NCBI GenBank assembly: GCA_031270285.1
Contig: JAISXY010000009.1
Span: 1 to 40,135 of the forward strand
Length of the DNA stretch: 40,135 nt
Origin: Campylobacteraceae bacterium
GTDB lineage: Bacteria > Campylobacterota > Campylobacteria > Campylobacterales > Campylobacteraceae
Reading direction: 5' to 3'
How positions within the stretch are numbered: position 1 is the first letter of the stretch; every line of letters starts with the position of its first letter. Below, piece by piece: positions 16,387 to 39,154 of this stretch. Position numbers and translations under genes: made by a program. Under the pieces are notes generated by a model, which was given only the letters and a program-made list of their open reading frames with translations, was not told the origin of the DNA and made no database searches.

Positions 16387-16776
16387 ATGAGTCACATGTC
16401 ATTTGTTCACCCATATTTTGGCGCTTTTTTTATGTTGTTTTTAGCGCTTGGGGTATTTGCTTTTATAACTTTTGCGGCAAATTCTATAAGCAAAAAGCTT
16501 GCGCGCAGAAATGATGAAAAGTTAAAATTGACAATTTATGAGTGCGGATTTCCGACCGTAAAACAACCAAACAGAATCAGTCCGCATTTTTATCTTTTTG
16601 CGTTATTATTTATTCTTTTTGATGTAGAAATTATTTTTATGTTTCCATGGGCGGTAAATTTTAAAGCTCTTGGAATGTTTGGATTTGTAGAAATGGCGCT
16701 TTTTATACTGCTTTTGGGAATAGGATTTGTGTATGCATGGAATAAAGGAGCGCTGGAATGGCACAACATAAAATAA
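16387..16776 (+). CDS. nuoA: NADH-quinone oxidoreductase subunit A
   Basis: Small membrane subunit of complex I near the quinone-site end. 129 aa with three transmembrane helices and the conserved [10 protein letters not shown] loop, the family's E-C-G loop, followed by [16 protein letters not shown]-like sequence ([11 protein letters not shown] is seen), where Asp/Glu are conserved. GAGG precedes the ATG. Its 3' end overlaps nuoB by 19 bp. Confidence 0.96.
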
Positions 16777-17267
16777 ACTATTTTCAAAACGGCGGACTTC
16801 CTGTTGCGCTGACGACTCTTGATAAGATTGTGCAATGGGGAAGAAGCAACTCTTTTTGGCCTGCCACTTATGGGCTTGCATGCTGTGCGATTGAGATGAT
16901 GGCTACGGGTGCGGGAAGGTTTGATTTTGACAGATTCGGAACAATTTTCAGAGCAAGTCCAAGACAGGCTGACGGTATTATTGTAGCCGGCACGCTCTCA
17001 AAAAAACATGCCCATCTCATGAAGAGAGTTTATGATCAGATCCCAGATCCAAAATGGGTCATTAGTATGGGAAGCTGTGCAAATACGGGCGGACTTTTCA
17101 ACACATACGCTACTGTTCAAGGAGTTGACAGGATAATTCCCGTTGATATTTATCTCCCGGGCTGCGCTCCTCGTCCGGAAACTTTGCAATATGCCGTGAT
17201 GCTGCTGCAAAAAAAGATCAGGTCTGAAAAAATAACAAGACAAAACAGACCGAAAAGGCTTATTTGA
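16758..17267 (+). CDS. nuoB: NADH-quinone oxidoreductase subunit B
   Basis: Carries the terminal [4Fe-4S] cluster N2 that passes electrons to quinone. Seen: [16 protein letters not shown] (double Cys), [12 protein letters not shown] and [11 protein letters not shown], giving the four ligands. 169 aa. Starts inside nuoA and ends one base into the nuoC start. Confidence 0.97.
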
Positions 17268-18067
17268 TGCGTCAATATATTAATAGAAAAAATGCTCAAG
17301 AAAGTCTCTATTTTCATGATAGGTTTAAAACCCCAAAACGCATTCCAAGAGTTAATGCGGACAATGATGAAATTTTTAAAAACGATCTTGAGAAAATCAG
17401 ATCAAAATTCAATGTCAATGACGCTTATATAGAGGCGGGACAGCTTGTTGTCTGGATAGAATCTAAAGACAATATAAAAGTATTGAAATTTCTAAAAAAC
17501 ACTTTAGAGTATAATAATCTTTCGGAGATGAGTGCTATTGATTTTTTGGCGGGAAGCGGAGAGTTTGAGATTTTTTATCAAATGCTTTCCATGAAAAAGC
17601 GCAGGCGAATGCGCATTAAGTGCCGAATAAAAGAGCATGAGCCTTTAAAAAGCGCCGTTGAAGTATATAAAAGCGCCGATTGGGCAGAGAGAGAGACATA
17701 TGACATGTTTGGTATCGTTATAGAAGGACACCCTTACATGAAGCGCATTTTAATGCCTGATGACTGGAGCGGCTATCCTCTCAGAAAATCTTATCCTTTG
17801 CAGGGCGATGAGGCAGCGCAATGGTATGAAATAGATCAGATATTCGGTAAAGAGTATAGAGATCTTATCGGTCCGGAGATAAGAGACAGCGCTTTAATAG
17901 AAAAAGAGAATACAAGAGGATATGCAAGAATTGGGCATGAGGTGCATTTTGATGAACCTTACAGTGAAGAGCCAAGCAAAATCGGCGAATATCAGGAAGA
18001 TAACGGAGTATTTCTTATTAAAAAGATTAAAAAAAGTAAATCCGTTACTCTTAAAAAAAGGCATTAA
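17267..18067 (+). CDS. nuoC: NADH-quinone oxidoreductase subunit C
   Basis: 30-kDa peripheral subunit of complex I. The signature [20 protein letters not shown] is present, followed by [21 protein letters not shown] start at ATG 17267, overlapping the nuoB stop by one base, giving 266 aa. NuoC and NuoD are separate genes here rather than fused as in E. coli. The N-terminal ~40 and C-terminal ~30 residues are charged extensions. Confidence 0.95.
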
Positions 18068-19305
18068 TGATGGCAATAGAGCAGCAGCCCAACAGATTAA
18101 AGCCGTTTTTTGAAAATATCTCTTTTGACAGAGATGATAATAATATGATTTTAAATTTAGGTCCGCAGCATCCGTCGGCTCATGGACAGTTGCGTTTGAT
18201 TTTAGAACTTAGCGGTGAAAAGATTATAAAAGCGATACCGGACATCGGCTACATGCACAGAGGCATAGAGAAGATGGCTGAAAATATGATATATAATGAA
18301 TTTTTGCCTGTAACTGACAGAATGGATTATATAGCGGCAACATCAAATAATTACGGCTTTGCGCTTGCTGTTGAAAAACTTATCGGCATTGAGATTCCAC
18401 GAAGAGCGCAGATAATCAGAATGCTGCTTTTGGAGATTAACCGCATCTCTTCGCATCTCTTTTGGCTTGCAACTCATGCTCTTGATATTGGAGCGATGAC
18501 AGTATTTTTATATGCTTACAGAGAGCGCGAGTTTGCCATGGATTTGATAGAAGATTACTGCGGTGCAAGACTTACACACAGTTCCATAAGAATTGGCGGC
18601 GTACCTTTGGATTTGCGCGAGGGGTGGCTTGAGAAACTTAGCGAATATTTAGATAAGCTGCCGGAGGCTATTAAGACATATGAAGGGCTGTTGGACGAAA
18701 ATAGAATTTGGAAAATGCGCCTTGAAAATGTTGGCATACTTACAAAAGAAGCGGCGCAAAGCTGGGGAGCTTCGGGCATAATGATAAGAGGAAGCGGCAT
18801 AGAGTGGGATATAAGAAAAGAGGAGCCTTATGAACTTTATAATGAAGTGGAGTTTGATGTTCCCGTAGCCTTTACATGCGATTGTTACGGCAGATATAAA
18901 CTCTACATGGAAGAGATGCGTCAATCCATGAGGATATTAAGACAGTTAATTCCAATGTACAAAGATACCAAGCCGCAGATTATGGCTGATGCGCCGGAAT
19001 TTATCAGCGCTCCCAAAGAGCAGATAATGACGCAAAACTACTCTTTAATGCAGCATTTTGTTTTAGTAACGCAAGGCATGAAACCGCCTGTCGGCGAGGT
19101 ATATGTTGCGACGGAATCCCCCAAAGGCGAACTTGGATATTATATAAATTCACAAGGCGGCGCGAATCCTTATAGATTAAAAATCAGAACCCCATCATTT
19201 TGGAATTGCAGTCTTTTCCAAGAAATAATGTGTAATTCATACTTACCAGATGCAATAGCGATGATAGCAAGTTCTAATATTCTGCTTGGCGAGACGGATA
19301 GATAA
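18067..19305 (+). CDS. nuoD: NADH-quinone oxidoreductase subunit D
   Basis: 49-kDa subunit forming the quinone pocket with NuoB. Seen: [16 protein letters not shown] with the quinone-binding His, [14 protein letters not shown], and the C-terminal [20 protein letters not shown], where the last residues match the family end. 412 aa. ATG at 18067 overlaps the nuoC stop; a second ATG follows at 18070. Confidence 0.97.
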
Positions 19306-20360
19306 TGAAGCGATATGATTTAAGACACCTTAAAAGTCGGTTTGCAGACAGAATCTTTGAATTGACAGACAACTCTTTAAGAGGCGAAGTATCAATATTT
19401 ATTTTTGAAATAGTCTCTAATGATGCGTTGCAGACTCTTATTAAAAATCTTAAACGCAGAGGACATGAAGTAATGAATTCGCTGCGTTTCAATGAAGTTG
19501 ATTGGACGATAGTCGTAAAAGCTTTTGTACATGAGCCGAGAGTTTCAAATCCTCTGTTTAACGCTTTTGAAAAGTATGGCGTAGAAGTTAAAAGAGTTGA
19601 TAAGAATGGCGTAATTTTGTGTATAGGTACACATTTTATCAAAGATAACGGTAGTTTAATGCAAGATATTATCAAAGAAAAAAAAGAGTTGATATATATG
19701 TCTGCGCAAGAAGATTTGAGTCTTAAAAAAACTGCTAAAATTTATATTAAGTATGAGACAGGTTCAGAAGCCGGGGTATTGGCGCTTATAGCAAAAAGCC
19801 TTTTAAAAGATATAGAAATCCCACAAGATGTAAAAAACTATCTTGAAGAGTTAGACGAGGGATATTTGAGCGCAGAGAGCAATGTAGGAGAAGAGGAGAT
19901 AGAAGAGGTAAAAAATCTCTTAATAAAAGATTCGCCGTCCTTGCTTTTAGGCTGTGATTTATACGAACATCATGATGCTGATTTAATAGCGGGATTGATA
20001 GCTCTTATTTTGCGTTTTAAGCCTTTAAGGGTGAGCGTTTTAAGCGATATAGAGTTAAAAGCAGAGCCAAAAACACTATTGCCGCAGCAAATTGGCGAGA
20101 TTAGAAGTTTTGACGGCACAATAGTCTATTTTTATGATGGAGCCGAAGAAGGTCCAAAACTTTACGGTTCTTTACAGTTTGCAATTGCAGCAAAACTTAA
20201 AGACGGCGATGAAGTTTCAATAAAGACTTCAAACGGCGATTTTGAAAGCGTATTTTCTCTTGATAAGAACATGAAAGGAACAATTGCAATTTTGGGTATA
20301 AAAAAGAGCGGATACAGGTATGAGACGGCAGCAGTTTCAAAAAGAGGGTCAAATGGCTGA
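19305..20360 (+). CDS. NuoE/NuoF-like replacement subunit, apparently fused
   Basis: 351 aa in the slot where nuoE and nuoF normally lie. It has no FMN- or NADH-binding glycine motif and no Fe-S cysteine set, so it is not a true NuoE or NuoF. Residues 1-75 ([13 protein letters not shown] to about DWTIVVKAF) resemble the ~75-aa NuoE-like protein, and the remainder the ~250-330-aa NuoF-like protein, that occupy this slot as two genes in Campylobacter (Cj1575c/Cj1574c) and Helicobacter (HP1264/HP1265); this comparison is from memory. In Campylobacter these are thought to let complex I accept electrons from flavodoxin instead of NADH. Starts in the nuoD stop; overlaps nuoG by 8 bp. Confidence 0.8.
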   Translation: MKRYDLRHLKSRFADRIFELTDNSLRGEVSIFIFEIVSNDALQTLIKNLKRRGHEVMNSLRFNEVDWTIVVKAFVHEPRVSNPLFNAFEKYGVEVKRVDKNGVILCIGTHFIKDNGSLMQDIIKEKKELIYMSAQEDLSLKKTAKIYIKYETGSEAGVLALIAKSLLKDIEIPQDVKNYLEELDEGYLSAESNVGEEEIEEVKNLLIKDSPSLLLGCDLYEHHDADLIAGLIALILRFKPLRVSVLSDIELKAEPKTLLPQQIGEIRSFDGTIVYFYDGAEEGPKLYGSLQFAIAAKLKDGDEVSIKTSNGDFESVFSLDKNMKGTIAILGIKKSGYRYETAAVSKRGSNG

Positions 20361-22740
20361 TATAATGATAACTATAAACGGTGTCAAAATAGCGGCAAAA
20401 GAGAATGAGACAATTTTAAATATAGCAAGAGCGAACGGTATTTTTATTCCCGCCATATGTTATATTAGCTGCTGTTCGCCGACACTGGCATGCAGACTTT
20501 GTATGGCAGATGTTGACGGCAAAAGAGTCTATACATGCAATGCAAAAGCTAAAGACGGGCAGGTTATTATTACAAATACGGAAGAAATAGAAGCAGAAAG
20601 ACGCGCGATAATGGAAGTTTATGCTGTCAATCACCCTTTGGAGTGCGGCGTATGTGATAAAAGCGGTGAGTGCGATTTGCAAAATTATATGCATGAGACA
20701 AAAGTAAACGAGCAGCGCTATGCCGTAACAAATACCTGTCGCGGGATAGAGGATTGGGGTAATATCCGCTATGATGCTTCGTTGTGTATAGTGTGTGAAA
20801 AATGTGTAACGGTATGTAAAGATAAAATCGGAGAAGCAGCCTTAAGAACTATACCGCGCGGCGAAGAGTTCGCTGTTCCCAAAGAGTACAAAGATATAAT
20901 GCCGAAAGATGCGTATGCCGTTTGGAATAAAATGCAAAAGTCATTGATAGATAAAGTACGAGATGAAAACGGTAATGCTGTGGAATGCGCAAAGTGTGGC
21001 GAATGCAGCGCAGTATGCCCAACAGGCGCACTTGTTGAAAGCAGTTTTCACTATATCTCAAATGCATGGGAGCTTAAACGAATACCTGCTGCAAATCCGC
21101 ACAGTTCGGATTGCTCATTGATATACTATGAAGTAAAACATCAAAGCATAGAGAATCCCTCTTTGAAAATTTACCGCGTACAGGGCGAACAAAATTTTGC
21201 TCCGCTTAATGCTGCGGCAAGATATGGATATGATTTTGAAAATAGTGGCGCAGTGAAAAATGAAGAGAAGAAAAAAGAGTTGGTGGAATTTATAAAAAAT
21301 GAAGCGGGAACGATACTCTTTAATAGTTTTATCACAAATGAAGAGGCGTTGATACTTCAAAAACTGAAAGAGAAATTTTCACTGAAACTTGTCAATGAAG
21401 ATGCTTATATATATCAGAGATTTTTAAAAGCAATGGGCAAATGTTCAGGCCATACTCTTTATAAAGGTACGCTTGAAAATATCCGCAAGAGCGATTTTAT
21501 CGTCAGTGTAGGCTCAATGATAAGATATGATGCCCCCAATGTCGGATATATGGTAAATAATGCCGCTAAATTAAACCGCGCCGCCGTTATATATTGTCAT
21601 CCGATCGGCGACAAGGTAGTACAGGGTTTTTCTAAAAATATATTGTCATTAAACTATCAATCGGGAAGTGAGGAGTCGCTTTTATATCTATTACTTGAAC
21701 TTTTTGCGCCGCTCTCGGAACTTGACGACGTAACAAGCGAATATCTGCAATCTTTTCATGTAATAAAAACAAAAATTGTAGATGATAAAGAGATTGAAGC
21801 GGTTACTTCAAAGCTTTGGGATATGACCGCTCTTGAAGATAAGAGCGCGCAAATAAAAGCGATGATGGCAGATAAAAATCGCCTTACACTGATAATCGGC
21901 GAAGATGTGCTGACACATCCAAGATGGCAGAACATGGCTTATATTGTGGGCATATTGGAGCATTTGGCAAATTTTGAAACAGTTATCATTCCTACACAAA
22001 CAAACACACTCGGCGTCTCTTTAATATGCGAACTTGATAAGTATGAAGAGGGTAAAACGCTTGGTTATAATCGGTTTGGCGATATGACCATGAGCGCATT
22101 TGGAGATGGATTTGATATGCCGGCCTTGAATCAGCAAGAGGGTACGTTTACTAGTATAGATAAAAGAGTAGTGCCTACAAATGCCGCACTTCCTTATAGC
22201 GGATATGAGTTAAACGATATTGCTTCCGCCCTTGGAATTAGCACAAAATATACGATTGATTATACACAAAAGTTACCCACTAATGCCGGTTTTAAACAGA
22301 TTGCATTTGATGATTTGGGGATAGATTTTGATAATGCGGGCAATGATAAAAGAGGTTATGAAGTTATCAACCAAAGCGTAGAAATATCAAAAACGCCTGT
22401 AAATTGTGAAAATGTGGCGCTGCATGGCGATATTGTATATAGATTAAATCCAATTTCACAATTTAGCATTTTTACAAATCGTGCGAGCCGATTAAAAAGG
22501 AAAGGCTCTCTTTTTGCTTCAAAAGAGTTTATTGATTCGCATAATCTTTTCAGCGGTCAAAATGTAAAAATAACATCTCAAAGCGGTGCGATTTTATATC
22601 TAAATATAGAAGAGGACAGAGATATAACGGGCAATTTCGCCTATTTGCCGACCTTTGATAAAATGCTTAATGTATATCCGTTTTTTGAAGAGTACAGATT
22701 TACTCCGTTTATGATAGAGGAAGTTTATAATGACGAATGA
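20353..22740 (+). CDS. nuoG: NADH-quinone oxidoreductase subunit G
   Basis: Largest peripheral subunit, relaying electrons through several Fe-S clusters. I start at ATG 20353 (MADIMITING), with GAGGG upstream. Seen: [2Fe-2S] Cys36, 47, 50, 62; HPLECGVCDKSGECD with His94 and Cys98, 101, 107 (cluster N5); CIVCEKCVTVC and CAKCGECSAVCPTGA for two [4Fe-4S] clusters. The C-terminal two-thirds is a degenerate molybdopterin-oxidoreductase fold; only one Cys (SSDCSLIYYE) remains where E. coli carries the off-path N7 cluster. 795 aa. Confidence 0.95.
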   Translation: MADIMITINGVKIAAKENETILNIARANGIFIPAICYISCCSPTLACRLCMADVDGKRVYTCNAKAKDGQVIITNTEEIEAERRAIMEVYAVNHPLECGVCDKSGECDLQNYMHETKVNEQRYAVTNTCRGIEDWGNIRYDASLCIVCEKCVTVCKDKIGEAALRTIPRGEEFAVPKEYKDIMPKDAYAVWNKMQKSLIDKVRDENGNAVECAKCGECSAVCPTGALVESSFHYISNAWELKRIPAANPHSSDCSLIYYEVKHQSIENPSLKIYRVQGEQNFAPLNAAARYGYDFENSGAVKNEEKKKELVEFIKNEAGTILFNSFITNEEALILQKLKEKFSLKLVNEDAYIYQRFLKAMGKCSGHTLYKGTLENIRKSDFIVSVGSMIRYDAPNVGYMVNNAAKLNRAAVIYCHPIGDKVVQGFSKNILSLNYQSGSEESLLYLLLELFAPLSELDDVTSEYLQSFHVIKTKIVDDKEIEAVTSKLWDMTALEDKSAQIKAMMADKNRLTLIIGEDVLTHPRWQNMAYIVGILEHLANFETVIIPTQTNTLGVSLICELDKYEEGKTLGYNRFGDMTMSAFGDGFDMPALNQQEGTFTSIDKRVVPTNAALPYSGYELNDIASALGISTKYTIDYTQKLPTNAGFKQIAFDDLGIDFDNAGNDKRGYEVINQSVEISKTPVNCENVALHGDIVYRLNPISQFSIFTNRASRLKRKGSLFASKEFIDSHNLFSGQNVKITSQSGAILYLNIEEDRDITGNFAYLPTFDKMLNVYPFFEEYRFTPFMIEEVYNDE

Positions 22741-23734
22741 AGCGGCTATGGTCTTAGAGACAGTTGTAAAATCTGTAATTGTACTTGCAATTGTAGCGTC
22801 TCTTGCAGGATTTGCGACATATGTAGAACGCAAAATTTTAGGCTTTATGCATCGCCGTTTGGGTCCCATGTATGTAGGACCGTTTGGACTTTTGCAGGCA
22901 GTAGCCGATGTTATTAAACTTTTCATGAAAGAGGACATTGTACCGCAAAACAGTGTGAAAGCGATATTTTGTTTAGCTCCTCTTTTGATAGTAGCAGCCA
23001 CCTTTACAGCGTTTGCGGCAGTGCCGTTTTTTCCTGAATTTGAATTTGGCGAATATAAGACATCAGCGATAATATCCGATATAAATGTAGGTATTTTATT
23101 TGTCATAGGCGTTTCATCAGCGGGTATGTATGCGCCGCTTCTTGCAGGATTGGGCAGCGCAAATAAATGGTCTATTTTGGGCGGAGCAAGAGCCGTAGTA
23201 CAACTGCTCTCTTTTGAAGTTATAACCGCTCTTGCTATTTTAGCTCCCGTAATGCTTACGGGCTCTTTATCGCTTGTAGATATAAATAATTTTCAAGGAG
23301 GAGGAGTTTTTGACTGGCTTATCTGGAAACAGCCTGTGGCATTTGTACTGTTTTGTATAGCCGGATTTGCCGAAACAAATAGAACCCCGTTTGATTTATT
23401 GGAACAAGAATCCGAAATAGTAAGCGGATATATCACCGAATATTCAGGCATGAGATGGGCGCTGTTTTTTCTCGGCGAATATTCCAACATGATACTAATC
23501 TCATTTTTAGTTGCACTAATGTTTTTAGGAGGTTTCAACTCCCTTTGGTTTATACCGGGAAGTATTATGATGCTTTTGAAAATATTAGGCTTCATGTTCT
23601 TTTTTATGTGGGCGCGCGGTGCATGGCCTCATATAAGACCGGATCAATTAATGTGGCTTTGCTGGAAAATCTTAATGCCGATAGCCCTTTTAAATGTGCT
23701 GATAACAGGCATAGTTTTGCTTTTGGGAGCGTAG
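22730..23734 (+). CDS. nuoH: NADH-quinone oxidoreductase subunit H
   Basis: Membrane subunit next to the quinone entry, with about eight helices. Seen: [37 protein letters not shown] and [19 protein letters not shown], all highly conserved. 334 aa; overlaps nuoG by 11 bp. Confidence 0.97.
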
Positions 23735-23735
23735 T

Positions 23736-24356
23736 ATGTTAGACTGGTTTACAAATAGAAATACAAACGGATATATCTACTTCAAACATGAGCCGACTCC
23801 AAAAACAAATTGGCAGAAATTTTGCCGTGTTTTGAAAAGAAGCGTAAAATTAGAGCTTTTTACAGGACTCTGGATAGTATTCAGAGAAATGGCAAAAGGC
23901 AAAAAAAATTGTCACACAACGCAGTATCCGTTAGAAAAAATGCCGATAGGTCCGCGATACCGCTCTGTGCATAAACTTTTGCGTCTGTTGGAAAGCGGCA
24001 AAGAGAGATGTATAGGGTGCGGATTGTGCGAAAAGATATGCGTCTCAAATTGTATCAGAATAGAAACAGGCGTTGATAAAGACGGACGTAAAAAGATAAA
24101 AGAGTACAGTATAAATTTTGGGCGCTGCATCTATTGCGGCTTATGTGCCGAAGTATGTCCCGAGCTTGCAATAGTACATGGAAACGAATATGAATATGCC
24201 GCGGAACAGCGCTCGTATTACGGACTAAAAAACGATATACTGACCCCGATTGATAAATTCAAGCTTGATTTGCAAAAAGAGTTTGAAGGTTGTGGCAGCA
24301 TAAGCAATGAAGCGAATGAATATGTCAAAAAAACACCGCTTGCAGGAGATGAATAA
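23736..24356 (+). CDS. nuoI: NADH-quinone oxidoreductase subunit I
   Basis: Ferredoxin-like subunit with two [4Fe-4S] clusters (N6a, N6b). Seen: [17 protein letters not shown] and [16 protein letters not shown], each giving CxxCxxCxxxC. The N-terminal amphipathic region and 206-aa length are normal. One-base gap from nuoH. Confidence 0.97.
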
Positions 24357-24874
24357 TGTATGAATTTATCGCTTTTTATCTATTTGCAACAGTAATCACC
24401 GTACTGTTTTTGATTACGGTATTCAGCAAAAACGCACTCTATTCCATGAGTGCATTAGCCGGCGGCATGATTTTTATAAGCGGTCTCTTTTTTCTTTTGG
24501 AAGCCGAATTTATAGGAGTTGTACAAATAGTTGTTTATACCGGCGCAGTTATGGCTCTATACGCTTTTGGTATGATGTTTTTTGATACGGCAAGGGAGGT
24601 TAAGGAGAATATTGCAGCCAAAAAAGTGATATATACTTTATGGATATTTGTGTCAATTCTGCTCGTTGTGATAATCTGCGCCCCGATATTTACAGGCAGT
24701 ATCCAAGCTTCCACGCCGATAGATGAAAATTTAAGTAATACGGCGGCATTGGGACTTTTGATGTTTACAGAATATCTGGCAGCTTTTGAACTTACTGCCG
24801 TGATGCTTTTAGTAGCTATGATGGCAGGCATTATTTTAGTAAGCCGCCGTCTTGATACGGGGGTTTCATCATGA
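24356..24874 (+). CDS. nuoJ: NADH-quinone oxidoreductase subunit J
   Basis: Five-helix membrane subunit of complex I. The pattern FLLEAEFIGVVQIVVYTGAV, with conserved Glu in the second/third helix, is typical. 172 aa; starts in the nuoI stop and overlaps nuoK by 4 bp (ATGA). Confidence 0.94.
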   Translation: MYEFIAFYLFATVITVLFLITVFSKNALYSMSALAGGMIFISGLFFLLEAEFIGVVQIVVYTGAVMALYAFGMMFFDTAREVKENIAAKKVIYTLWIFVSILLVVIICAPIFTGSIQASTPIDENLSNTAALGLLMFTEYLAAFELTAVMLLVAMMAGIILVSRRLDTGVSS

Positions 24875-25173
24875 TAGGATTTTATCACTACTTGATATTG
24901 AGTGCACTTTTATTTGTAATAGGCTTGGCGGGAGTTTTAAGGAGAAAAAATATTTTGATGCTCTTTTTTTCTACGGAAATTTTATTAAATGCCGCAAATG
25001 TCGGCTTTGTTGCCGTATCAAAGTTTTATATGGATTTGGGTGGACAAATATTTGCTCTGTTTATCATAGCAATAGCCGCAAGTGAAGTCGCAGTAGGGCT
25101 TGGGCTTTTAACGCTATGGTATAAACGCACAGGCTCTATTGATCTTGACAGCTTAAATATTATGAAGGGATAA
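24871..25173 (+). CDS. nuoK: NADH-quinone oxidoreductase subunit K
   Basis: 100-aa, three-helix membrane subunit. Seen: LRRKNILMLFFSTEILLNAAN with the conserved membrane Glu used in proton transfer, then FIIAIAASEVAVGLGL with the second Glu. Typical length. Confidence 0.96.
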   Translation: MIGFYHYLILSALLFVIGLAGVLRRKNILMLFFSTEILLNAANVGFVAVSKFYMDLGGQIFALFIIAIAASEVAVGLGLLTLWYKRTGSIDLDSLNIMKG

Positions 25174-25175
25174 GA

Positions 25176-27026
25176 ATGGAATTTTTCATATATACAGCCC
25201 TTTTTGCACCGCTTTTTGCCGCAATTTTTGCCGCAATTTTTGCCATGAAAGAAAAAAATATTATTACGGGAGTCGTAAATTCTGCTCTTATTGCGATTTC
25301 AACTATTGCTTCAATAATACTTTTGTGCAATATCGGCGAAAATAGCTGGCATGTAAAACTGACAGGGTGGATAAATGCGGGCGATTTGGATATTCCGTTT
25401 GGATTTGTTGTTGATAAGGTAAGCGTTATAATGATGGTAACGGTTGGTATTGTTTCAACGCTGGTGCATATTTACTCCATAGAATATATGGCTCATGACA
25501 AGTCGTTTAACCGCTTTTTTTCATATTTGTCGGCATTTGTTTTTTCCATGCTTGTACTTGTTATGAGTGATAATTTTGCAGGACTTTTTATCGGATGGGA
25601 AGGCGTTGGACTTTGCTCATGGATGCTGATAGGATTCTGGTACGAAAGAGGGAGCGCATCATGGGCGGCAAACGAAGCTTTTATCATGAATAGAATAGCC
25701 GATCTTGGTATGCTGCTCGGCATATTTGTGATTTATTGGCAGTTTGGGACTTTGCAATATGATACCGTTTTTGCCGCTGTATCAGATATGGATACGGTAG
25801 TTTTAACAACTATCGGTATTTTGCTCTTTATCGGCGCTATGGGTAAATCAGCGCAATTTCCTCTGCATACATGGCTTGCCGATGCGATGGAAGGTCCGAC
25901 TCCCGTTTCTGCTCTTATACATGCGGCTACGATGGTAACGGCAGGCGTATATCTATTGATACGCGCCAATCCTATTTATATAAACATTCCCGATACAGGC
26001 TTTTTTATAGCGTCTTTAGGAGCATTTGTAGCGGTCTTTGCCGCTCTCATGGCGCTTGTAAATAATGACTTAAAGCGAATTATAGCTTACTCCACACTTT
26101 CGCAGCTCGGATATATGTTTGTAGCGGCAGGTCTTGGAGCGTATTGGATAGCGTTGTTCCACCTTGTAACGCATGCCTACTTTAAATCACTTCTGTTTTT
26201 AGGCGCAGGAAATGTTATGCATGCTATGCATGAAGAGTTGAATATCAAAAATATGGGCGGATTATATAAGACGATGAAATATACCGCTATTTTGATGATA
26301 ATAGCCTCTGTTGCGCTCGCAGGTATCTATCCGTTTGCAGGGTTCTTTTCAAAAGATAAGATACTGGAGGTCGCACTGAATGAAAATGCATATATTTTAT
26401 ATTCCGCTCTTTGGGCAGGCGCAGGACTTACGGCATTTTACAGTTTTAGACTGATATTTATTGTATTTTTCGGCAAAAAAGTATGGGAAAAACAGCATAT
26501 TCATCCGCATGAAGCAGGTCAAACAGCGATTTTTGCTATGCTGCCGCTTGGCATTTTGGCTGTTATAGCCGGCTTTTTTGAGAAAAGATTTGAACATTTT
26601 GCGACAGAACTGTTGCCGGAGTATATGTTTAATATCTCGCACAGTACGGCTGTTTTGATGATTGCCGCAACGCTTGGGATAGCTCTGTTTGGAATATTTT
26701 TCGCATTTTATATGTATATCATAAGAGGCGGCTTTCCAAAATGGATAGAAGATAAAGCCGTATATAAATTTTTATTTAATCAATATTACATTCCGCAGCT
26801 TTATCAGACCTATATTGTGCGTCCGTTTGAGGCTGTGGCAAGATTTTTCTGGAAAGAGCTTGACGAAAAGAGTATAGACGCAAGTGTGGATATGATAGCA
26901 AAAACATTAGAGCGCGGCGGCGATAAAGCGCGACACATGCAAAGCGGCAATCTCTCCGTCATGATCAGATGGATGGTGGTCGGTTTAGTCGTACTGCTTT
27001 TGACGGCAGTTCTTTGTCAGGTATAA
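25176..27026 (+). CDS. nuoL: NADH-quinone oxidoreductase subunit L
   Basis: Distal antiporter-like proton-pumping subunit. Seen: FIGWEGVGLCSWMLIGFWYE with the conserved Glu, MGKSAQFPLHTWLADAMEGP and TPVSALIHAATMVTAGVYLL with the core Lys and His residues, and HAYFKSLLFLGAGNVMHAMH. A C-terminal amphipathic arm with a final helix follows. 616 aa. Two-base gap from nuoK. Confidence 0.97.
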   Translation: MEFFIYTALFAPLFAAIFAAIFAMKEKNIITGVVNSALIAISTIASIILLCNIGENSWHVKLTGWINAGDLDIPFGFVVDKVSVIMMVTVGIVSTLVHIYSIEYMAHDKSFNRFFSYLSAFVFSMLVLVMSDNFAGLFIGWEGVGLCSWMLIGFWYERGSASWAANEAFIMNRIADLGMLLGIFVIYWQFGTLQYDTVFAAVSDMDTVVLTTIGILLFIGAMGKSAQFPLHTWLADAMEGPTPVSALIHAATMVTAGVYLLIRANPIYINIPDTGFFIASLGAFVAVFAALMALVNNDLKRIIAYSTLSQLGYMFVAAGLGAYWIALFHLVTHAYFKSLLFLGAGNVMHAMHEELNIKNMGGLYKTMKYTAILMIIASVALAGIYPFAGFFSKDKILEVALNENAYILYSALWAGAGLTAFYSFRLIFIVFFGKKVWEKQHIHPHEAGQTAIFAMLPLGILAVIAGFFEKRFEHFATELLPEYMFNISHSTAVLMIAATLGIALFGIFFAFYMYIIRGGFPKWIEDKAVYKFLFNQYYIPQLYQTYIVRPFEAVARFFWKELDEKSIDASVDMIAKTLERGGDKARHMQSGNLSVMIRWMVVGLVVLLLTAVLCQV

Positions 27027-27035
27027 GGAGATATG

Positions 27036-28562
27036 ATGGGTAATATACTGCTACTTATAACGGTTTTGTTTCCTTTGCTTGCAGGCTTTTTGGGTTTTTT
27101 TGTAACACAGAGAAATATTAAAATTTACGGAATTATATCTGCTTTTATAGAGTTTATACTCTCTTTAGCGCTTTGGGCTGTGTTTGATATAAATCAGGGC
27201 GGTTTTCAAATGATTGTGAGCCTGCCTTTGATACCGAGCTTTGGCGTGGCATTTTTACTTGGCATTGACGGCATATCTCTGTTTTTAGTGATTTTAAGCA
27301 CATTTATAACATTTGTAGGGCTTATTGCGCTTGGTGAAATGAAAAGTATGAAAAATCTCATTCTCTCCATACTTTTTTTAGAGATGACTATGGTAGGAGT
27401 TTTTGTAAGTCTTGATCTGCTGCTTTTTTATCTTTTTTGGGAACTCTCTTTGGTGCCTATGCTCTATATTATTGGTGCATGGGGCGCTGATAAAAGAATT
27501 TATGCGGCTGTCAAATTTTTCTTATATACATTTGCGGGTTCCGTATTGATGCTGGTTGGTATTTTATATTTTGGTTATTTATATCATGAAGTAAGCGGCG
27601 TTTGGAGTTTTTCACTGATTGATTGGGAGAGTCTGCCGCTTTCATACAATGTACAATTATGGCTTTTCGGAGCGTTTTTCTTGGGATTTGCGATAAAAGT
27701 ACCGATGTTTCCTTTTCATACATGGCTGCCATATGCTCATGGACAAGCTCCTACGATAGGATCAGTTATTCTTGCGGCTGTACTTTTAAAGATGGGAACT
27801 TATGGCTTTGTAAGATTTTTACTGCCGCTTTTTCCTGACGCTACAGTCTATTTTTTAATACCTATTGCGGTCGTGTCCGTGATAATGGTTATTTATGCGG
27901 CGCTCATAGCATTTGCTCAAAACGATATGAAGCAGGTTATTGCTTACTCCTCAATTTCACATATGGGCATTATTATATTGGGAACATTTGCTCTAAATAC
28001 AGAAGGCATATCGGGATCCGTATTTTTCATGATAAGTCATGGAATCGTAAGCGGCGCTCTGTTCATGCTGGTGGGCGTGATATATGACCGCAGACATACA
28101 AAAATGATGCATGAGTTCGGAGGGCTTGCTTCGGTAATGCCAAAGTATGCGGTAATCTTTGCTATTGTCCTCATGAGCGCAGTAGGACTTCCTCTGACAA
28201 TAGGATTTGTGGGCGAATTTTTATCTCTCATAGGATTTTATAAAATAGATTGGCTTTTAACCGCATTTGCAGGCACAGGCATAATTTTGGGCGCAGTTTA
28301 CATGTTAAGGCTGTATAGAAAATCTTTCTTTGGAGAGATTACAAAAAAAGCAAATAAAAATTTGAAAGATTTATACCCAAGGGAACTTTTTGCGCTTGTG
28401 CCGATAACTATTTTGATAATAGTTTTGGGTGTCTATCCCAGAGCGGTTTTAGATCCTGTGCAGGAGAGTGTCAAAAGTACGCTTCAAATAATGTCGCAAA
28501 ATGCGCAAAAATATGAGACAAAACTCTTTTTAGAGCAAGCTGCCGCAAAGGAGACAAAGTAA
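27036..28562 (+). CDS. nuoM: NADH-quinone oxidoreductase subunit M
   Basis: Antiporter-like membrane subunit. Seen: YLFWELSLVPMLYIIGAWG (conserved Glu), GFAIKVPMFPFHTWLPYAHG with the core Lys, and FAQNDMKQVIAYSSISHMG. I start at the second ATG (27036), 5 bp after AAGGAG; the first at 27033 is only 2 bp away. 508 aa. The stop overlaps nuoN by one base. Confidence 0.96.
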   Translation: MGNILLLITVLFPLLAGFLGFFVTQRNIKIYGIISAFIEFILSLALWAVFDINQGGFQMIVSLPLIPSFGVAFLLGIDGISLFLVILSTFITFVGLIALGEMKSMKNLILSILFLEMTMVGVFVSLDLLLFYLFWELSLVPMLYIIGAWGADKRIYAAVKFFLYTFAGSVLMLVGILYFGYLYHEVSGVWSFSLIDWESLPLSYNVQLWLFGAFFLGFAIKVPMFPFHTWLPYAHGQAPTIGSVILAAVLLKMGTYGFVRFLLPLFPDATVYFLIPIAVVSVIMVIYAALIAFAQNDMKQVIAYSSISHMGIIILGTFALNTEGISGSVFFMISHGIVSGALFMLVGVIYDRRHTKMMHEFGGLASVMPKYAVIFAIVLMSAVGLPLTIGFVGEFLSLIGFYKIDWLLTAFAGTGIILGAVYMLRLYRKSFFGEITKKANKNLKDLYPRELFALVPITILIIVLGVYPRAVLDPVQESVKSTLQIMSQNAQKYETKLFLEQAAAKETK

Positions 28563-30040
28563 TGCATGAGAATATATCGCTTATAACGCTGGAAAGTTTA
28601 AATCTTTGTACTCTTGCGCCGACAATAGTTTTATGTTTGGGTGCGTTGGTCATAATATGCATAGAAATATCTATAAAAGGATTAAGCCGAAATTTTTATG
28701 TTGGCATAAGTTCGTTGTTTTTGCTTGGCTCGCTTGTTTGCATTATATCGTTAGGCGCTGAAGATGAGACAGGTTTTTTTAATACAATGCTGATAGACGG
28801 TATGTCAAAGTTATCGCATATTATCATTATCGCCGCCTCTTTGCTTTTTGCTCCTTTGGCTCTGTGCAAAAAAGAGTTTGCCGAACATAAATTTGCCGAA
28901 TATTTTGCTCTATTGCTTTTCATGACGGCAGGTTTTTCATTTATGGCATCTACGACAAATCTTATATTAATATTTATAGGGCTTGAGACGGCATCTTTGT
29001 CTTTATATGCAATGATAGCAATGCATAATCGTAAAAAGGCTATAGAAGCGGCGTTGAAATATTTTACTATGGGCGCATTGGCGAGCGGATTTTACGCATT
29101 TGGCGCAATGATATTTTATGCGATGACCGCAAGCGTGGATATAAATGAGATATTAATCAGGCTTTTAAATAGAGATTTTTATCCTCTGCTTGGCGTTATG
29201 GGCGCACTTGCGCTGATATTGGGAGCTATGGGCTTTAAACTTTCGCTTATACCGTTTCATACATGGATGCCTGATGTTTATGAAGGCTCTTCCGCACCGC
29301 TTGCGGGGTATATTTCAGTAGTTCCGAAGATAGCAGCATTTGTAGTTACTGTGAGAATATTTGAACCGTTTATAGCCAACAATATAGTCTGGGCGGAGAA
29401 TATATTTTATCTGTTAGCCGTAGTTACAATGACGCTTGCAAATCTCATGGCGCTGGTACAGACTGATGTAAAAAGAATGCTTGCTTTCAGTTCCATATCA
29501 CATGCGGCATTTATATTGTGCGCTGTTCTTGCGGGTACCGAACAGGCTAACAGCGCGATATTTGTCTATTGGATACTGTTCATGTTCGCAAATATGGGCG
29601 CATTTGCACTTTTATGGGCTGCGAGAAACGATACTAACTTATATGATTTTAGATTTCAACATCCGTTTATCAAATTTTCAGGGCTTATTAAAACCGCTCC
29701 CATAACGGCTGTACTGATGGCTTTATTTATGCTCTCATTGGCTGGCATTCCGCCGTTTTCGGTATTTTGGGGTAAGATATATATCATGAGTGCGGTAATA
29801 AATGACGGATATATCATATTGGCTGTCATCATGGCGATAAACAGCGCCATAGCGGTGTACTATTATCTGAAATTAATTGTATATATGTTTTTAAAGCGGC
29901 CGTCCGAAATTGACGGCAAAATTTATGCTCAAAACGCTTCTTTGAGCGTCAGCATAGTTGTTGGGATAACAGCGGCGGTAACGCTTACGGCAGTGCTGCT
30001 GGCAGAACCCGCTATGAAATTGACGAGCTATTTTTTATAA
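28562..30040 (+). CDS. nuoN: NADH-quinone oxidoreductase subunit N
   Basis: Antiporter-like membrane subunit, last gene of the operon. Seen: IFIGLETASLSLYAM (Glu), AMGFKLSLIPFHTWMPDVYE with the core Lys, and LVQTDVKRMLAFSSISHAAF. 492 aa. Ends just before a hairpin and convergent miaA. Confidence 0.96.
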   Translation: MHENISLITLESLNLCTLAPTIVLCLGALVIICIEISIKGLSRNFYVGISSLFLLGSLVCIISLGAEDETGFFNTMLIDGMSKLSHIIIIAASLLFAPLALCKKEFAEHKFAEYFALLLFMTAGFSFMASTTNLILIFIGLETASLSLYAMIAMHNRKKAIEAALKYFTMGALASGFYAFGAMIFYAMTASVDINEILIRLLNRDFYPLLGVMGALALILGAMGFKLSLIPFHTWMPDVYEGSSAPLAGYISVVPKIAAFVVTVRIFEPFIANNIVWAENIFYLLAVVTMTLANLMALVQTDVKRMLAFSSISHAAFILCAVLAGTEQANSAIFVYWILFMFANMGAFALLWAARNDTNLYDFRFQHPFIKFSGLIKTAPITAVLMALFMLSLAGIPPFSVFWGKIYIMSAVINDGYIILAVIMAINSAIAVYYYLKLIVYMFLKRPSEIDGKIYAQNASLSVSIVVGITAAVTLTAVLLAEPAMKLTSYFL

Positions 30041-33847: not shown

Positions 33848-34429
33848 ATGATTATCCGTAAAATATTTAAGTTTGAAAATACGCATATTGTGCGCGGCTG
33901 CGTTACAAAAAAGTGTCGTACAAGCATACATGGACACTCATACAAAATAGAAGTGCTTTTTGAGTCAAAAAACCTTGACGATGCGCAGATGGTATATGAC
34001 TTTGGTTTGATGAAAGGCTACATGCAGGATTTGATTGAGTCGTTTGACCATTCTGTTACTTTATGGAATAAAGATGATGCGGGTTATATTGCAGCGATGA
34101 AAAAGTATTCCGACAGATGGGTGGAACTTCCCGTAAGTCCAACAGCCGAACAGTTTGCAAGAGTTATATTTTTGATGGTTGATCTGCTATTGACAAATAC
34201 GGTTTTTACAAATGGCGAAGGAAAGATAGCCGTTAATTCCGTTATCGTTCATGAAACCGATAGAGGTTATGCCAAAGCCGATGTAGAAGACGCTTACAGC
34301 GAGACGATGGGCATTATAAATCCAAACAACATCGTTTTTTCTACGGGCGTGAGAGAGGATTGGGGCGATATTGACTTGTGGAATAAAATTCTAAACAGCG
34401 AACAGTTTATAAATCCAAAAACTATTTGA
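33848..34429 (+). CDS. queD: 6-carboxytetrahydropterin synthase
   Basis: Converts dihydroneopterin triphosphate to 6-carboxytetrahydropterin. Seen: FKFENTHIVRGC (zinc His13), KKCRTSIHGHSYKIEV with catalytic Cys23 and zinc His28/His30, FDFGLMK-type YDFGLMKGYM, SFDHSVTLW and a C-terminal HETDRGYA. I start at ATG 33848, with AAGGAG 6 bp before; an upstream in-frame ATG lies inside queE. 193 aa, longer than the ~120-aa E. coli enzyme, as in other Campylobacterota. Confidence 0.92.
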   Translation: MIIRKIFKFENTHIVRGCVTKKCRTSIHGHSYKIEVLFESKNLDDAQMVYDFGLMKGYMQDLIESFDHSVTLWNKDDAGYIAAMKKYSDRWVELPVSPTAEQFARVIFLMVDLLLTNTVFTNGEGKIAVNSVIVHETDRGYAKADVEDAYSETMGIINPNNIVFSTGVREDWGDIDLWNKILNSEQFINPKTI

Positions 34430-34439
34430 AAGGGATAAA

Positions 34440-35102
34440 ATGAGAAATATATTAATAAGTGCGGCAATTGCGGCTGTTATATTGTCTGGCTGCGGCGACA
34501 AAAAAGAGACGAATACGCTTAAAGAGATAAATAAAACAGCGCAAAATGTTCTATCTGATGTGAAAAGCGGTGTTTCTGATGCGATTGAAAAAGCAGATGA
34601 AGCGGCTCAAAAGATACATGAAGTCAAAAATGATATTGCAGAACAGGCGGAAAAAACCGAAAAAGAGGCAAAAGAAGCATTGGAAAAAGCCACAAATACG
34701 GGAAAAGAGATTTTACAGAAAGCGAATAATACGATAAATGACGCTGAAAAAGCGGCAGATAAGATTATCAATGAAAATATAAAACCGACAATTGATACGG
34801 CAAAACAAAAAGCCGAAAATATAGCCGAAGCGGCAGCAGCCCCAGTAGTCAATGCGGATAAAGGTAAAAAACTTTTTACTACATGCATACCGTGCCATGG
34901 CACAAAGGCTGAAAAATCAGCCGTAAATAAGAGCCAAATCATCAATAAATGGAGTAAAGAGCAAATCCTGAAAGCGCTCAAAGGATACAAAGACGGCACA
35001 TATGGCGGCGCATTTAAAGCCACTATGACGCCTACAGTCAAGAAATTGAGCGATGCTGACATGGAAGAGTTAGCCGCATATATAGCCGATCTTGGAAAAT
35101 AA
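34440..35102 (+). CDS. Lipid-anchored cytochrome c on a helical stalk
   Basis: 220 aa. Residues 1-18 (MRNILISAAIAAVILSGC) are a lipoprotein signal with lipidated Cys18. Residues ~24-130 are an Ala/Lys/Glu-rich, heptad-like helix with no aromatic residues. Residues ~137-220 are a small class I cytochrome domain: KKLFTTCIPCHGTKAEKS (heme Cys149, Cys152, His153) and TMTPTVKKLSDADMEELAAY with probable axial Met196. So a single heme is held away from the membrane on a long stalk in the periplasm. Partners are unknown; the family resembles cytochrome c553. AAAGGG precedes the ATG. Confidence 0.85.
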   Translation: MRNILISAAIAAVILSGCGDKKETNTLKEINKTAQNVLSDVKSGVSDAIEKADEAAQKIHEVKNDIAEQAEKTEKEAKEALEKATNTGKEILQKANNTINDAEKAADKIINENIKPTIDTAKQKAENIAEAAAAPVVNADKGKKLFTTCIPCHGTKAEKSAVNKSQIINKWSKEQILKALKGYKDGTYGGAFKATMTPTVKKLSDADMEELAAYIADLGK

Positions 35103-35103
35103 T

Positions 35104-35499
35104 ATGGACGATACGATAGAACTTGTGAAAAGTATTTTATCGTTTAGTTTTTTTGCTTTTATCGTAACGGCACTAACGGGTTTTATACTGTTTTGCCTTA
35201 CGGATAAAAACGAAATTTTGCGGAAATATTTCCGCTCTGTGATGCCGATATATTATATGTTTTTGGCAATTATATTTTTATGTATTCTTTTACTACTGGC
35301 ATTTAAAAGCTTTCGTATAACGCTTATAGAGAGCGCCGCACTTATCACATGGATATGCGTTTTATACGGTGCGATAACTGTTTATAAACTTGGCAAAAAT
35401 GATAACAAAAAATTTAAAAATTTTGCTCTCAAAAAATATGCGCTTGATGTTATTCTCTGCTTTGTTATCTATTTTTTATGGGTTAGCGGGATTGTTTAA
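35104..35499 (+). CDS. Small four-helix membrane protein, unknown
   Basis: 131 aa from ATG 35104, one base after the cytochrome stop. Four hydrophobic segments (about residues 10-32, 48-66, 75-93 and 112-130) with a basic loop NDNKKFKNFALKKYALD. Not recognised; no cofactor motifs. The stop overlaps rsmE by one base, so it lies in the same transcription unit. Confidence 0.7.
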   Translation: MDDTIELVKSILSFSFFAFIVTALTGFILFCLTDKNEILRKYFRSVMPIYYMFLAIIFLCILLLLAFKSFRITLIESAALITWICVLYGAITVYKLGKNDNKKFKNFALKKYALDVILCFVIYFLWVSGIV

Positions 35500-37581: not shown

Positions 37582-38265
37582 ATGTTAATTTATGGCAAGC
37601 AACTTTTTTTGTATCTGTTAGAGCACAATCCAAAGCGGATACAACGAGTGTATCTGGCTAAAGAGTGTGATAAAAAACTGTTCGCAAAAATAGCAAAATT
37701 AAATGTTAAAATAGAACGATTGGATGAAAAAAAGGCACAGGCTCTGGCAAAGGGCGGCAATCATCAAGGGTTTCTTGCCGATGTAGAACCTGTTCTGCCC
37801 GTTTCGCTTTCGTCGCTGAAAGATGAAAATTTTTTGGTTATGCTTTGCGGCGTTACCGATATGGGCAATATAGGCGCAATTATAAGAAGCGCTTACGCTT
37901 TTGGTTTTGGCGGAATTATTATTTCGGGGCTGAAAGAGTTGAAGATTGAGAATGTTTTGCGTACGTCAAGTGCGGCGGCGTTTGAACTTCCCGTATGTAT
38001 TATGCCTAATGCGCTGGATGCTGTGAATGAGTTAAAACTCTCAGGTTTTAGCGTTTATGGGGCGGACATGAGGGGAGAAAATGCAAAGGATGCGGTATTT
38101 AGTAAAAAAATGGTTTTGATTTTGGGCAGCGAAGGAGAAGGAGTTCCGAATCGCCTACTTGATAAGTGCGACAAAATAGTCTGTATTAAAATGGGCAGAG
38201 AGTTTAACTCTTTAAATGTAAGCGCTGCTGCGGCAGTTTTGTTTAACAGGATATATAATGGATAG
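37582..38265 (+). CDS. rlmB: SpoU/TrmH-family 23S rRNA ribose methyltransferase, RlmB-like
   Basis: Methylates a ribose 2'-OH in 23S rRNA (Gm2251 for RlmB). Seen: start MLIYGKQLFL typical of RlmB, GGNHQGFLADV, VTDMGNIGAIIRSAYAFG with catalytic Asn/Arg, ILGSEGEGVPNRLLDKCD, and EFNSLNVSAAAAVLFNRI (SPOUT knot). 227 aa. No ribosome site; possibly leaderless. Overlaps the next gene by 8 bp. Confidence 0.9.
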   Translation: MLIYGKQLFLYLLEHNPKRIQRVYLAKECDKKLFAKIAKLNVKIERLDEKKAQALAKGGNHQGFLADVEPVLPVSLSSLKDENFLVMLCGVTDMGNIGAIIRSAYAFGFGGIIISGLKELKIENVLRTSSAAAFELPVCIMPNALDAVNELKLSGFSVYGADMRGENAKDAVFSKKMVLILGSEGEGVPNRLLDKCDKIVCIKMGREFNSLNVSAAAAVLFNRIYNG

Positions 38266-39154
38266 TATTAAAGCATTAGAGAAGATAGGACTTAGAGAAG
38301 TTTCAAGAAGAACTTATATTGAGTTGAGTTATCTAAAATTGATGGCAGATAGAGATTTTGCGAAACTTCATCGTATCAAAACGCTTGGTTTTGTAAAGAT
38401 AATTAAGCGCGAGTACGGCATAGACATGAGCGATTGGGTCGCAGAATTTGAAGCATATCTTCAAGAAAGCGAGAAAAAAACCAAAGAGAAAAAAGAGTAT
38501 GTGTCTTTGCCTGCAGAGAGTTGGTACAAAAAAATAAGAGTTTACATGAACAGACAAAAGAGGATTTATGCTATTACGGGCATACTTTTTTTAATAATCA
38601 TCACAGCAGTTTTTTATGCGCTGCTTAAAGTGCGCGTAACATATATAGAAGATACTTCCTCAAGCGTATATCAAAATATAATGATAGCAGATACTGCTCT
38701 TCAGATAAACGGTACCGAAAATACAACAGAAAATAGTACGGCCAATAATCAAACGGCGGAAAATGTAACTATTGCGTCAGAAACCACCCAACCCAATCAA
38801 GCCGATATATCCCCGACTGTTTCCGTGAATACTCAACCGCCTGTTGCAGTTACGCCGAAGCGCACAAGTAAAGCGGTAGCGTCCATATCGCCGAATATTG
38901 AAATTTGGGTTGGTATCATAGACCTTACAACATTTAACAGAAGCACATATTTGCAAGGGTGGGATATTAAACTTGACACAAGCAAAGAACAAATTATTGT
39001 TACCGGACATGGCGACTTTAGATTGAAAGTAGAAGGCGAATCCATCAAATATTTTAATCCTCAAGAGATGGTATATCTGCATGTAAAGGACGGAGCGGTT
39101 TTACAGATAAACGAAGAGGAGTTTATGCAGCTTAACAGAGGCAGAAATTGGTAA
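38258..39154 (+). CDS. RodZ-like HTH/transmembrane protein
   Basis: 298 aa in RodZ architecture: an N-terminal HTH-like cytoplasmic part (GLREVSRRTYIELSYLKLMA then FVKIIKREYGIDMSDWVAEF), one transmembrane helix (about residues 103-124), a Thr/Asn/Gln-rich periplasmic linker (about 145-215), and a C-terminal beta domain (EIWVGIIDLTTF, GHGDFRLKVE). RodZ links MreB to the cell envelope in rod-shape control. Sequence identity is too weak to name the gene, and no mreB lies here. The stop overlaps the next start. Confidence 0.7.
   Translation: MDSIKALEKIGLREVSRRTYIELSYLKLMADRDFAKLHRIKTLGFVKIIKREYGIDMSDWVAEFEAYLQESEKKTKEKKEYVSLPAESWYKKIRVYMNRQKRIYAITGILFLIIITAVFYALLKVRVTYIEDTSSSVYQNIMIADTALQINGTENTTENSTANNQTAENVTIASETTQPNQADISPTVSVNTQPPVAVTPKRTSKAVASISPNIEIWVGIIDLTTFNRSTYLQGWDIKLDTSKEQIIVTGHGDFRLKVEGESIKYFNPQEMVYLHVKDGAVLQINEEEFMQLNRGRNW

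Follow-up and report, generated by a model that had tools for sequence, protein, structure and literature searches.

A predicted lipid-anchored cytochrome c of the c553 type with a long, drifting amphipathic stalk in the Campylobacterales

Introduction

The window analysed here, a stretch of 40,135 nucleotides that makes up contig C75 of a 1.5 Mb draft genome, encodes a cytochrome c whose heme domain stands at the end of a long charged region following a putative lipid anchor. The locus raises the question of what such a stalk does: whether it is a rod across the periplasm, a spacer of fixed length, a helix lying on a membrane, or a tether on which the heme domain could move among its redox partners. 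Anchored cytochromes with linkers are known already; the variant here combines a lipid anchor with a long, phase-conserved amphipathic tether and occurs across an order. Among the titles that an open-licence library gave on c553, cytochrome c lipoproteins and LEA or hendecad periplasmic proteins none describes such a tether, and the excerpted part of PMC10968294 contains nothing on c553. The features of the locus are as follows.

33848..34429, + strand: queD (6-carboxytetrahydropterin synthase), upstream neighbour; PF01242, E-value 6e-23; conserved
34440..35102, + strand: open reading frame (ORF) of the cytochrome, 220 aa
34440..34493, + strand: predicted lipoprotein signal peptide with lipobox LSGC, from the sequence; Cys18 is the predicted lipidated residue
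34494..34853, + strand: stalk of 120 residues (19-138), from composition and periodicity; no Phe, Trp or Tyr, amphipathic periodicity of 3.63, Pro116 and Pro135
34854..35099, + strand: single-heme cytochrome c domain of the Desulfovibrio vulgaris c553 type, from PF00034, PDB 1dvh and conservation; CIPCH at 149-153, Met196 as predicted axial ligand
35104..35499, + strand: small membrane protein of 131 aa with about four hydrophobic stretches, 3' of the cytochrome in 14 of 14 loci

Domain organisation of the cytochrome

The C-terminal heme domain that a sequence-only reading had placed in this protein is borne out by profile comparison. Residues 139-218 match the Pfam family Cytochrom_C (PF00034) with an E-value of 3.4e-10 and 41.5 bits (cut-off 21.3), and the only CxxCH motif of the ORF, CIPCH, lies inside this match. 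The best relative of known structure is PDB 1dvh (E-value 6.9e-15 over the 76 residues 142-217), which we take to be the cytochrome c553 of D. vulgaris. Met196 aligns with the second methionine of the KAMMT motif in this structure, presumably the axial ligand Met57 in its numbering, and C149, C152, H153 and M196 are invariant in 14 of 14 aligned relatives. On these similarities the domain is predicted to be a class I cytochrome c of the c553 type, having the heme motif near the domain start and the Met ligand position.

The N-terminus consists of a short hydrophobic segment leading into a lipobox (L15-S16-G17-C18), of which G17 and C18 are invariant across the 14 aligned sequences. A signal peptide with lipobox and cysteine fits a bacterial lipoprotein, and the lipidated cysteine supposed earlier can now be named as Cys18 by prediction. 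The architecture of lipobox, helix-periodic stalk and c553-type heme domain is, as judged by sequence comparison, a recurring one across the order.

Gene neighbourhood and distribution

The gene lies in a tight block on one strand comprising queE, queD, the cytochrome, the small membrane protein, rsmE, rpmE (named by sight) and rsmI. All 14 loci examined keep this gene order; 13 of them belong to the genus, and L012 comes from a different genus in the same family. The small membrane protein, which had been described as starting one base later, indeed starts at 35104 with the stop codon of the cytochrome ending at 35102, and it belongs to the conserved block. P48, Y50, Y51, F53, K98, K111 and Y112 are invariant in its 13 aligned members; no Pfam family matched more than one member (13 of the 14 were scanned), and no NCBIfam family was found for it.

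Seventy loci (L001-L030 and L036-L075) have been classified. Tethered forms, having a lipobox and a long linker, account for 43 and untethered forms for 26, while L041, with a lipobox and a heme domain outside the motif used by the script, has been placed in neither class; all but L074 and L075 are best matches of full-length queries, which biases the set to tethered forms. The gene queD adjoins 25 of the 43 tethered loci and is absent beside the other 18. These 25 are the 14 block loci and L018, L020, L051, L053, L055, L058, L059, L062, L068, L069 and L072, the latter eleven belonging to the family groups f4, f7 and f22; across the order, four family-level groups thus have tethered c553s next to queD. 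No queD has been found within flanks of about 1.5 kb beside any of the 26 untethered c553s.

In a first search, a c553-domain match at an E-value of 0.001 or below was present in 39 of 41 genomes, the own genome included. An order-wide sample gave matches at 1e-18 or below in 108 of 298 genomes, a count that mixes tethered and untethered proteins as seen from the open-frame lengths. In a tree of 72 heme domains (79 columns; 43 tethered, 29 untethered) the tether state appears to change at least five times, two of the changes being forced by starred branches. The near relatives are metagenome-assembled 'Campylobacteraceae bacterium' genomes, which we take to be termite-gut genomes; four of their five loci have a tethered cytochrome and the fifth (L035) has a 493-aa lipoprotein ORF of another kind.

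Other arrangements of c553-like proteins have been observed in the order. An untethered c553 lies immediately 5' of rsmE in another family (L026, 1444-2395), and is possibly the same locus after tether loss. Both of the f22 loci L051 (1183-1395) and L053 (237-554) have a second c553-like match immediately 3' of the tethered one. A different kind of long linker is seen in L028 (1108-1773), where a long repeat of Pro, Ala and Lys precedes the c553 domain and no clear lipobox is seen.

Elsewhere in the window, positions 16387-30040 carry a run of complex I (nuo) genes, which we take to resemble the Campylobacterota-type complex I. No NuoE or NuoF has been seen within this run, and a 351-aa ORF (19305-20360) matches only a short stretch of the NuoG model. 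An ORF of 298 aa at 38258-39154 has one hydrophobic segment in mid-protein and no NCBIfam match at an E-value of 1e-5 or below.

Composition, drift and periodicity of the stalk

The stalk has one His among its residues and is 36% charged with a net charge of about zero. The picture of a long, aromatic-free, charged and helix-prone stalk drawn in the sequence-only reading agrees with this composition and with the helical periodicity described below; its length had been put at about 105 residues, and this figure has to be revised to nearer 120.

Among eight close relatives the mean identity is 53% in the stalk as against 87% in the heme domain, and over all the 14 sequences it is 40% as against 66%, with about 31 gapped positions per pair. 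The stalk has 70-121 residues across 13 members of the genus, and the distance from the Cys to the CxxCH motif is 62-158 (median 127) in 40 stalks of the order. Both sequence and length of the stalk drift, unlike those of a fixed spacer such as Lpp. Pfam and NCBIfam profile searches assigned the stalk itself to no family, giving only sub-threshold matches, and no second copy of the stalk has been detected in the own genome, the sole match at an E-value of 1 or below being the window itself. A stalk peculiar to this genome was considered and rejected, the complete ORF being present in 12 of 13 other genomes of the same genus; in the remaining genome (G008) the match covers residues 1-54 and lies at the end of a contig.

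The hydrophobic periodicity of the window stalk has a power of 21.1 at a period of 3.63, the highest power among 2000 shuffles of it being 10.8 on a threefold coarser period grid. The method recovered synthetic strings of period 3.5, 3.6 and 3.67 to within 0.01. It has been applied to 40 of the 43 tethered stalks, L010, L013 and L037 being tethered but missed by the lipobox rule, and the peak lies at 3.58-3.75 in 38 of the 40. The exceptions, L016 and L024, are both short; L065 peaks within the range with a power of only 2.3, and the linkers of all three have little periodicity (z of 2.5 or below). Averaged over each of four groups, which together cover 33 of the 40 stalks, the periodicity peaks at 3.60 in the genus and at 3.64-3.68 in the other three groups; the powers are 12.7-22.0, and those of the shuffles do not exceed 3.5. 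The autocorrelation of hydrophobicity is maximal at lag 11 in all four groups (0.33-0.48), a maximum also reached at lag 18 in the genus and at lag 22 in f9; at lag 14 it is 0.26 in the genus and 0.12-0.16 in the other groups, and at lag 21 it is 0.12 or less. The 11-residue repeats are visible by eye in L015, L018 and L062.

A canonical heptad coiled coil has been rejected, the window peak being at 3.63 and the power of the genus mean only 1.5 at a period of 3.5 as against 19.4 at 3.6. The periodicity of the stalk points to a straight amphipathic helix, one face of which is formed by Ala, Ile, Val and Leu, and not to a left-handed coiled-coil rod.

Shape and reach of the stalk

Residues 23-118, which make up the first five sixths of the window stalk, stay within 36 degrees of phase at a period of 3.6, a spread that becomes 51 degrees at 3.63, and the last sixth, after Pro116, is about 85 degrees off phase. 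A four-part test of phase coherence gave 0.88 (p 0.43) for the window stalk alone. For 35 stalks the median coherence is 0.99 as against 0.84 for randomly shifted quarters, with p at or below 0.05 in 20 of the 35.

Predicted structure had been put forward as the arbiter of an extended stalk; AlphaFold2 models show helices in it at mean pLDDT values of 50 and 46, a confidence too low to separate a rod, a hinged arm and a bundle. The model of the whole protein has helices at 22-62, 64-99 and 105-149 (mean pLDDT 50.1, pTM 0.33), and that of the stalk alone at stalk residues 2-43 and 48-115, or about 20-61 and 66-133 of the protein (pLDDT 45.8, pTM 0.25). Both were built from five sequences each, and this shallow alignment is likely to be their limit, because the model of the heme domain is poor as well. 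The two low-confidence models share a break near residue 63, which may represent a hinge; the whole-protein model breaks also near 100-104.

If it were helical throughout, the stalk would measure about 18 nm (120 x 0.15 nm), and its in-phase part about 14 nm. In wild-type E. coli in hyperosmotic medium the membranes are 30-32 nm apart, and the size range of Lpp is very narrow, according to the available portion of PMC8824477. Measured against this distance, and with the range of lengths found in the genus and the order, the earlier idea that the stalk could span the periplasm is not sustained. The stalk is not considered a fixed spacer because its length varies, whereas Lpp keeps its length. 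It is possible that the stalk reaches from one membrane past the wall; a bridge between both membranes is not indicated. Of the flexible or rod-like carrier that had been suggested, the flexible form is reasonable, and the rod is disfavoured by a period of 3.6-3.7 instead of 3.5 and by the phase shift after Pro116.

Probable redox partners and role

In the own genome, CcoN and CcoO of a cbb3 oxidase score above the curated cut-offs and are adjoined by a sub-threshold CcoP (134 bits, cut-off 180). The genome also has a Rieske protein above cut-off adjoining a cytochrome b, two CCP_MauG proteins (CCP/MauG peroxidases) and a cytochrome c assembly protein. Among 10 genus genomes searched, cytochrome b has been found in all 10, COX1 in 9 and CCP_MauG in 8; COX1 was not found in G009, a genome 81% complete, and CCP_MauG was not found in G002 and G009. 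Since CCP_MauG is missing from two of these ten, a peroxidase would not be a universal partner, unless the drafts are incomplete.

We consider it probable that the protein is a periplasmic single-heme c553 held by a lipid and a long amphipathic helical tether, shuttling electrons from the bc1 complex to the cbb3 oxidase and/or to cytochrome c peroxidases. The heme domain would receive electrons from bc1 and pass them to either kind of acceptor, and the tether would hold it near the membrane and yet allow it to swing between docking sites, in the manner of the cytochrome cy linker. Selection would act on a soluble amphipathic helix of an 11- or 18-residue pattern, with Ala, Ile, Val and Leu on one face and Lys and Glu elsewhere, and not on the exact sequence or length.

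The neighbours of the gene, which are mostly RNA-modification genes and not respiratory ones, count against a respiratory role; mqnP and nuo genes are situated upstream within the window. The same genome also has an untethered c553-like protein (L074, 1899-2222) beside an apparent P-type ATPase gene. This protein alone could carry electrons from bc1 to cbb3, which counts against the tethered shuttle; since both forms occur in the genome, it is natural to suppose that a tethered and a free carrier divide the work. A third c553-like protein of the genome (L075, 1535-2149) differs in its N-terminal extension, which is acidic, and lacks a convincing lipobox.

Alternative readings of anchor and stalk

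The lipid might instead be held in the outer membrane, the long stalk crossing the peptidoglycan inwards to meet partners in the periplasm or the inner membrane, and this we regard as rather unlikely. Among the 46 ORFs listed, two of which (L030 and L075) are not tethered c553s, Gly is at +2 in 28 and Asp or Glu at +3 in 30; in E. coli such an acidic residue at +3 might favour retention, a rule which is E. coli's and may not hold in this phylum. If it did, it would speak against an outer-membrane anchor; the unconserved stalk length, unlike that of Lpp, speaks against it as well. In its favour, the stalk is long for a tether, and LolA-family matches occur in 14 of 15 genomes, the own genome among them with a weak match (20.6 bits, 26.6 with neighbours; cut-off 23.6). 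The part of PMC7240156 available adds that lolA and lolF are essential in H. pylori, with no lolB recognised there, and that lolB was not found in Epsilonproteobacteria. We lean slightly towards the inner membrane, since bc1 and cbb3, the presumed partners, are located in it. Another arrangement, in our view an unlikely one, has an amphipathic helix of the 11-residue type lying along the membrane surface like those of apolipoproteins and LEA proteins and keeping the heme domain close. The periods of 3.64-3.68 in three of the four groups are consistent with it, and so are sub-threshold matches to the Apolipoprotein family PF01442 in four of five relatives scanned (L015 1.4e-8, L062 1.1e-5, L012 1.1e-4, L059 0.0055; the L059 and L062 frames are partial), with none in L018; ApoLp-III reaches an E-value of 0.013 on the window protein. 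However, the PF01442 scores are at most 35.1 bits (the best, L015) against a curated cut-off of 90, and PF01442 is not among the best 25 of 30 families for the window protein. Membership of the Apolipoprotein A1/A4/E family itself has been rejected at that best score. The lipid-binding discriminant, with the formula and thresholds (0.68 and 1.34) that we take for it, exceeds 1.34 in 4% of the sequence windows of L015 and 0.68 in 27% of those of L047; against these, the mean for the stalk under study is 0.12, with 14% of its sequence windows above 0.68 and none above 1.34.

Folding back of the stalk into a hairpin or compact helical bundle, giving a globular lipoprotein, would account for the breaks in the two AlphaFold2 models and for the failure of the whole window stalk in the coherence test. 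The mean pLDDT of these models is, after rounding, at most 50; the hydrophobic stripe holds over residues 23-118, and the median coherence of the 35 stalks argues against loops of arbitrary length, which would break it. We hold such a fold to be quite unlikely. A low-complexity linker without selected structure, in which length and solubility alone matter, agrees with the low identity and many gaps of the stalk over the 14 sequences and with the three linkers of little periodicity, but the peak held in 38 of 40 stalks despite the drift makes it improbable. We also give little credence to a wider proposal, in which an order-wide class of lipid-anchored cytochromes has a fast-evolving, phase-conserved 11/18-residue amphipathic tether (LEA- or apolipoprotein-like) that switches between two states, an extended arm with partial disorder and a helix bound to a membrane or to a partner, an outer-membrane-anchored heme domain patrolling past the peptidoglycan to inner-membrane and soluble partners.

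The tethered shuttle from bc1, which remains our preferred reading, bears on wider questions. Tethered carriers decide whether electrons pass inside fixed supercomplexes or via a shared periplasmic pool, and the order holds both tethered and untethered c553s, the tethered form standing at a conserved queD site in several families. In the tether it is seen cleanly how a periodicity can be kept while sequence and length drift. The requirements of a redox tether thereby become testable: that it be soluble, long enough, amphipathic, or a ruler.

Comparison with known systems

The cytochrome c553 of D. vulgaris (PDB 1dvh, 1c53) shares with the window protein the CxxCH motif, the position of the Met ligand and a match of 76 residues; its solved chain of 79 residues is without stalk or lipobox. 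The anchor of the heliobacterial cytochrome c553 is a lipid. This protein, listed among the membrane-anchored cytochromes in the excerpt of PMC7876108, is likewise an anchored c553, from another phylum.

Braun lipoprotein Lpp is similar in being a lipid-anchored helical protein of the periplasm; it is a coiled coil of near-fixed length in the portion of PMC8824477 covered, whereas here the period is 3.6-3.7, the length is variable and a heme domain is terminal. Against the Lpp/OprI alanine-zipper model NF040598 the window protein scores 22.3 bits, below the cut-off of 43. An Lpp-type coiled-coil spacer has been rejected, neither the heptad period of 3.5 (the peak being at 3.63) nor a narrow range of length having been found. 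The azurin Laz of Neisseria has a repeat-rich linker. Laz is comparable as a lipid-anchored small redox carrier, and is a copper protein, unlike the heme protein here, as given in the partial text of PMC6277709.

In the excerpted account of PMC7876108, cytochrome cy of Rhodobacter consists of a membrane helix of 30 residues, a linker of 69 residues and a c domain that is mobile and serves bc1 and cbb3; about 45 linker residues suffice for respiration. The uncleaved N-terminal transmembrane anchor of cytochrome cy has no counterpart in the window protein, whose sole N-terminal hydrophobic stretch ends in the lipobox, and by analogy the greater length of the 120-residue tether may count against a cy-like tether. 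With the cytochrome cy of Rhodobacter capsulatus, as described in that excerpt, the protein shares a membrane-held single c domain on a long linker, here of 120 residues; the two differ in that a transmembrane anchor with a 69-residue linker is replaced by a lipobox with an amphipathic linker of about 120 residues.
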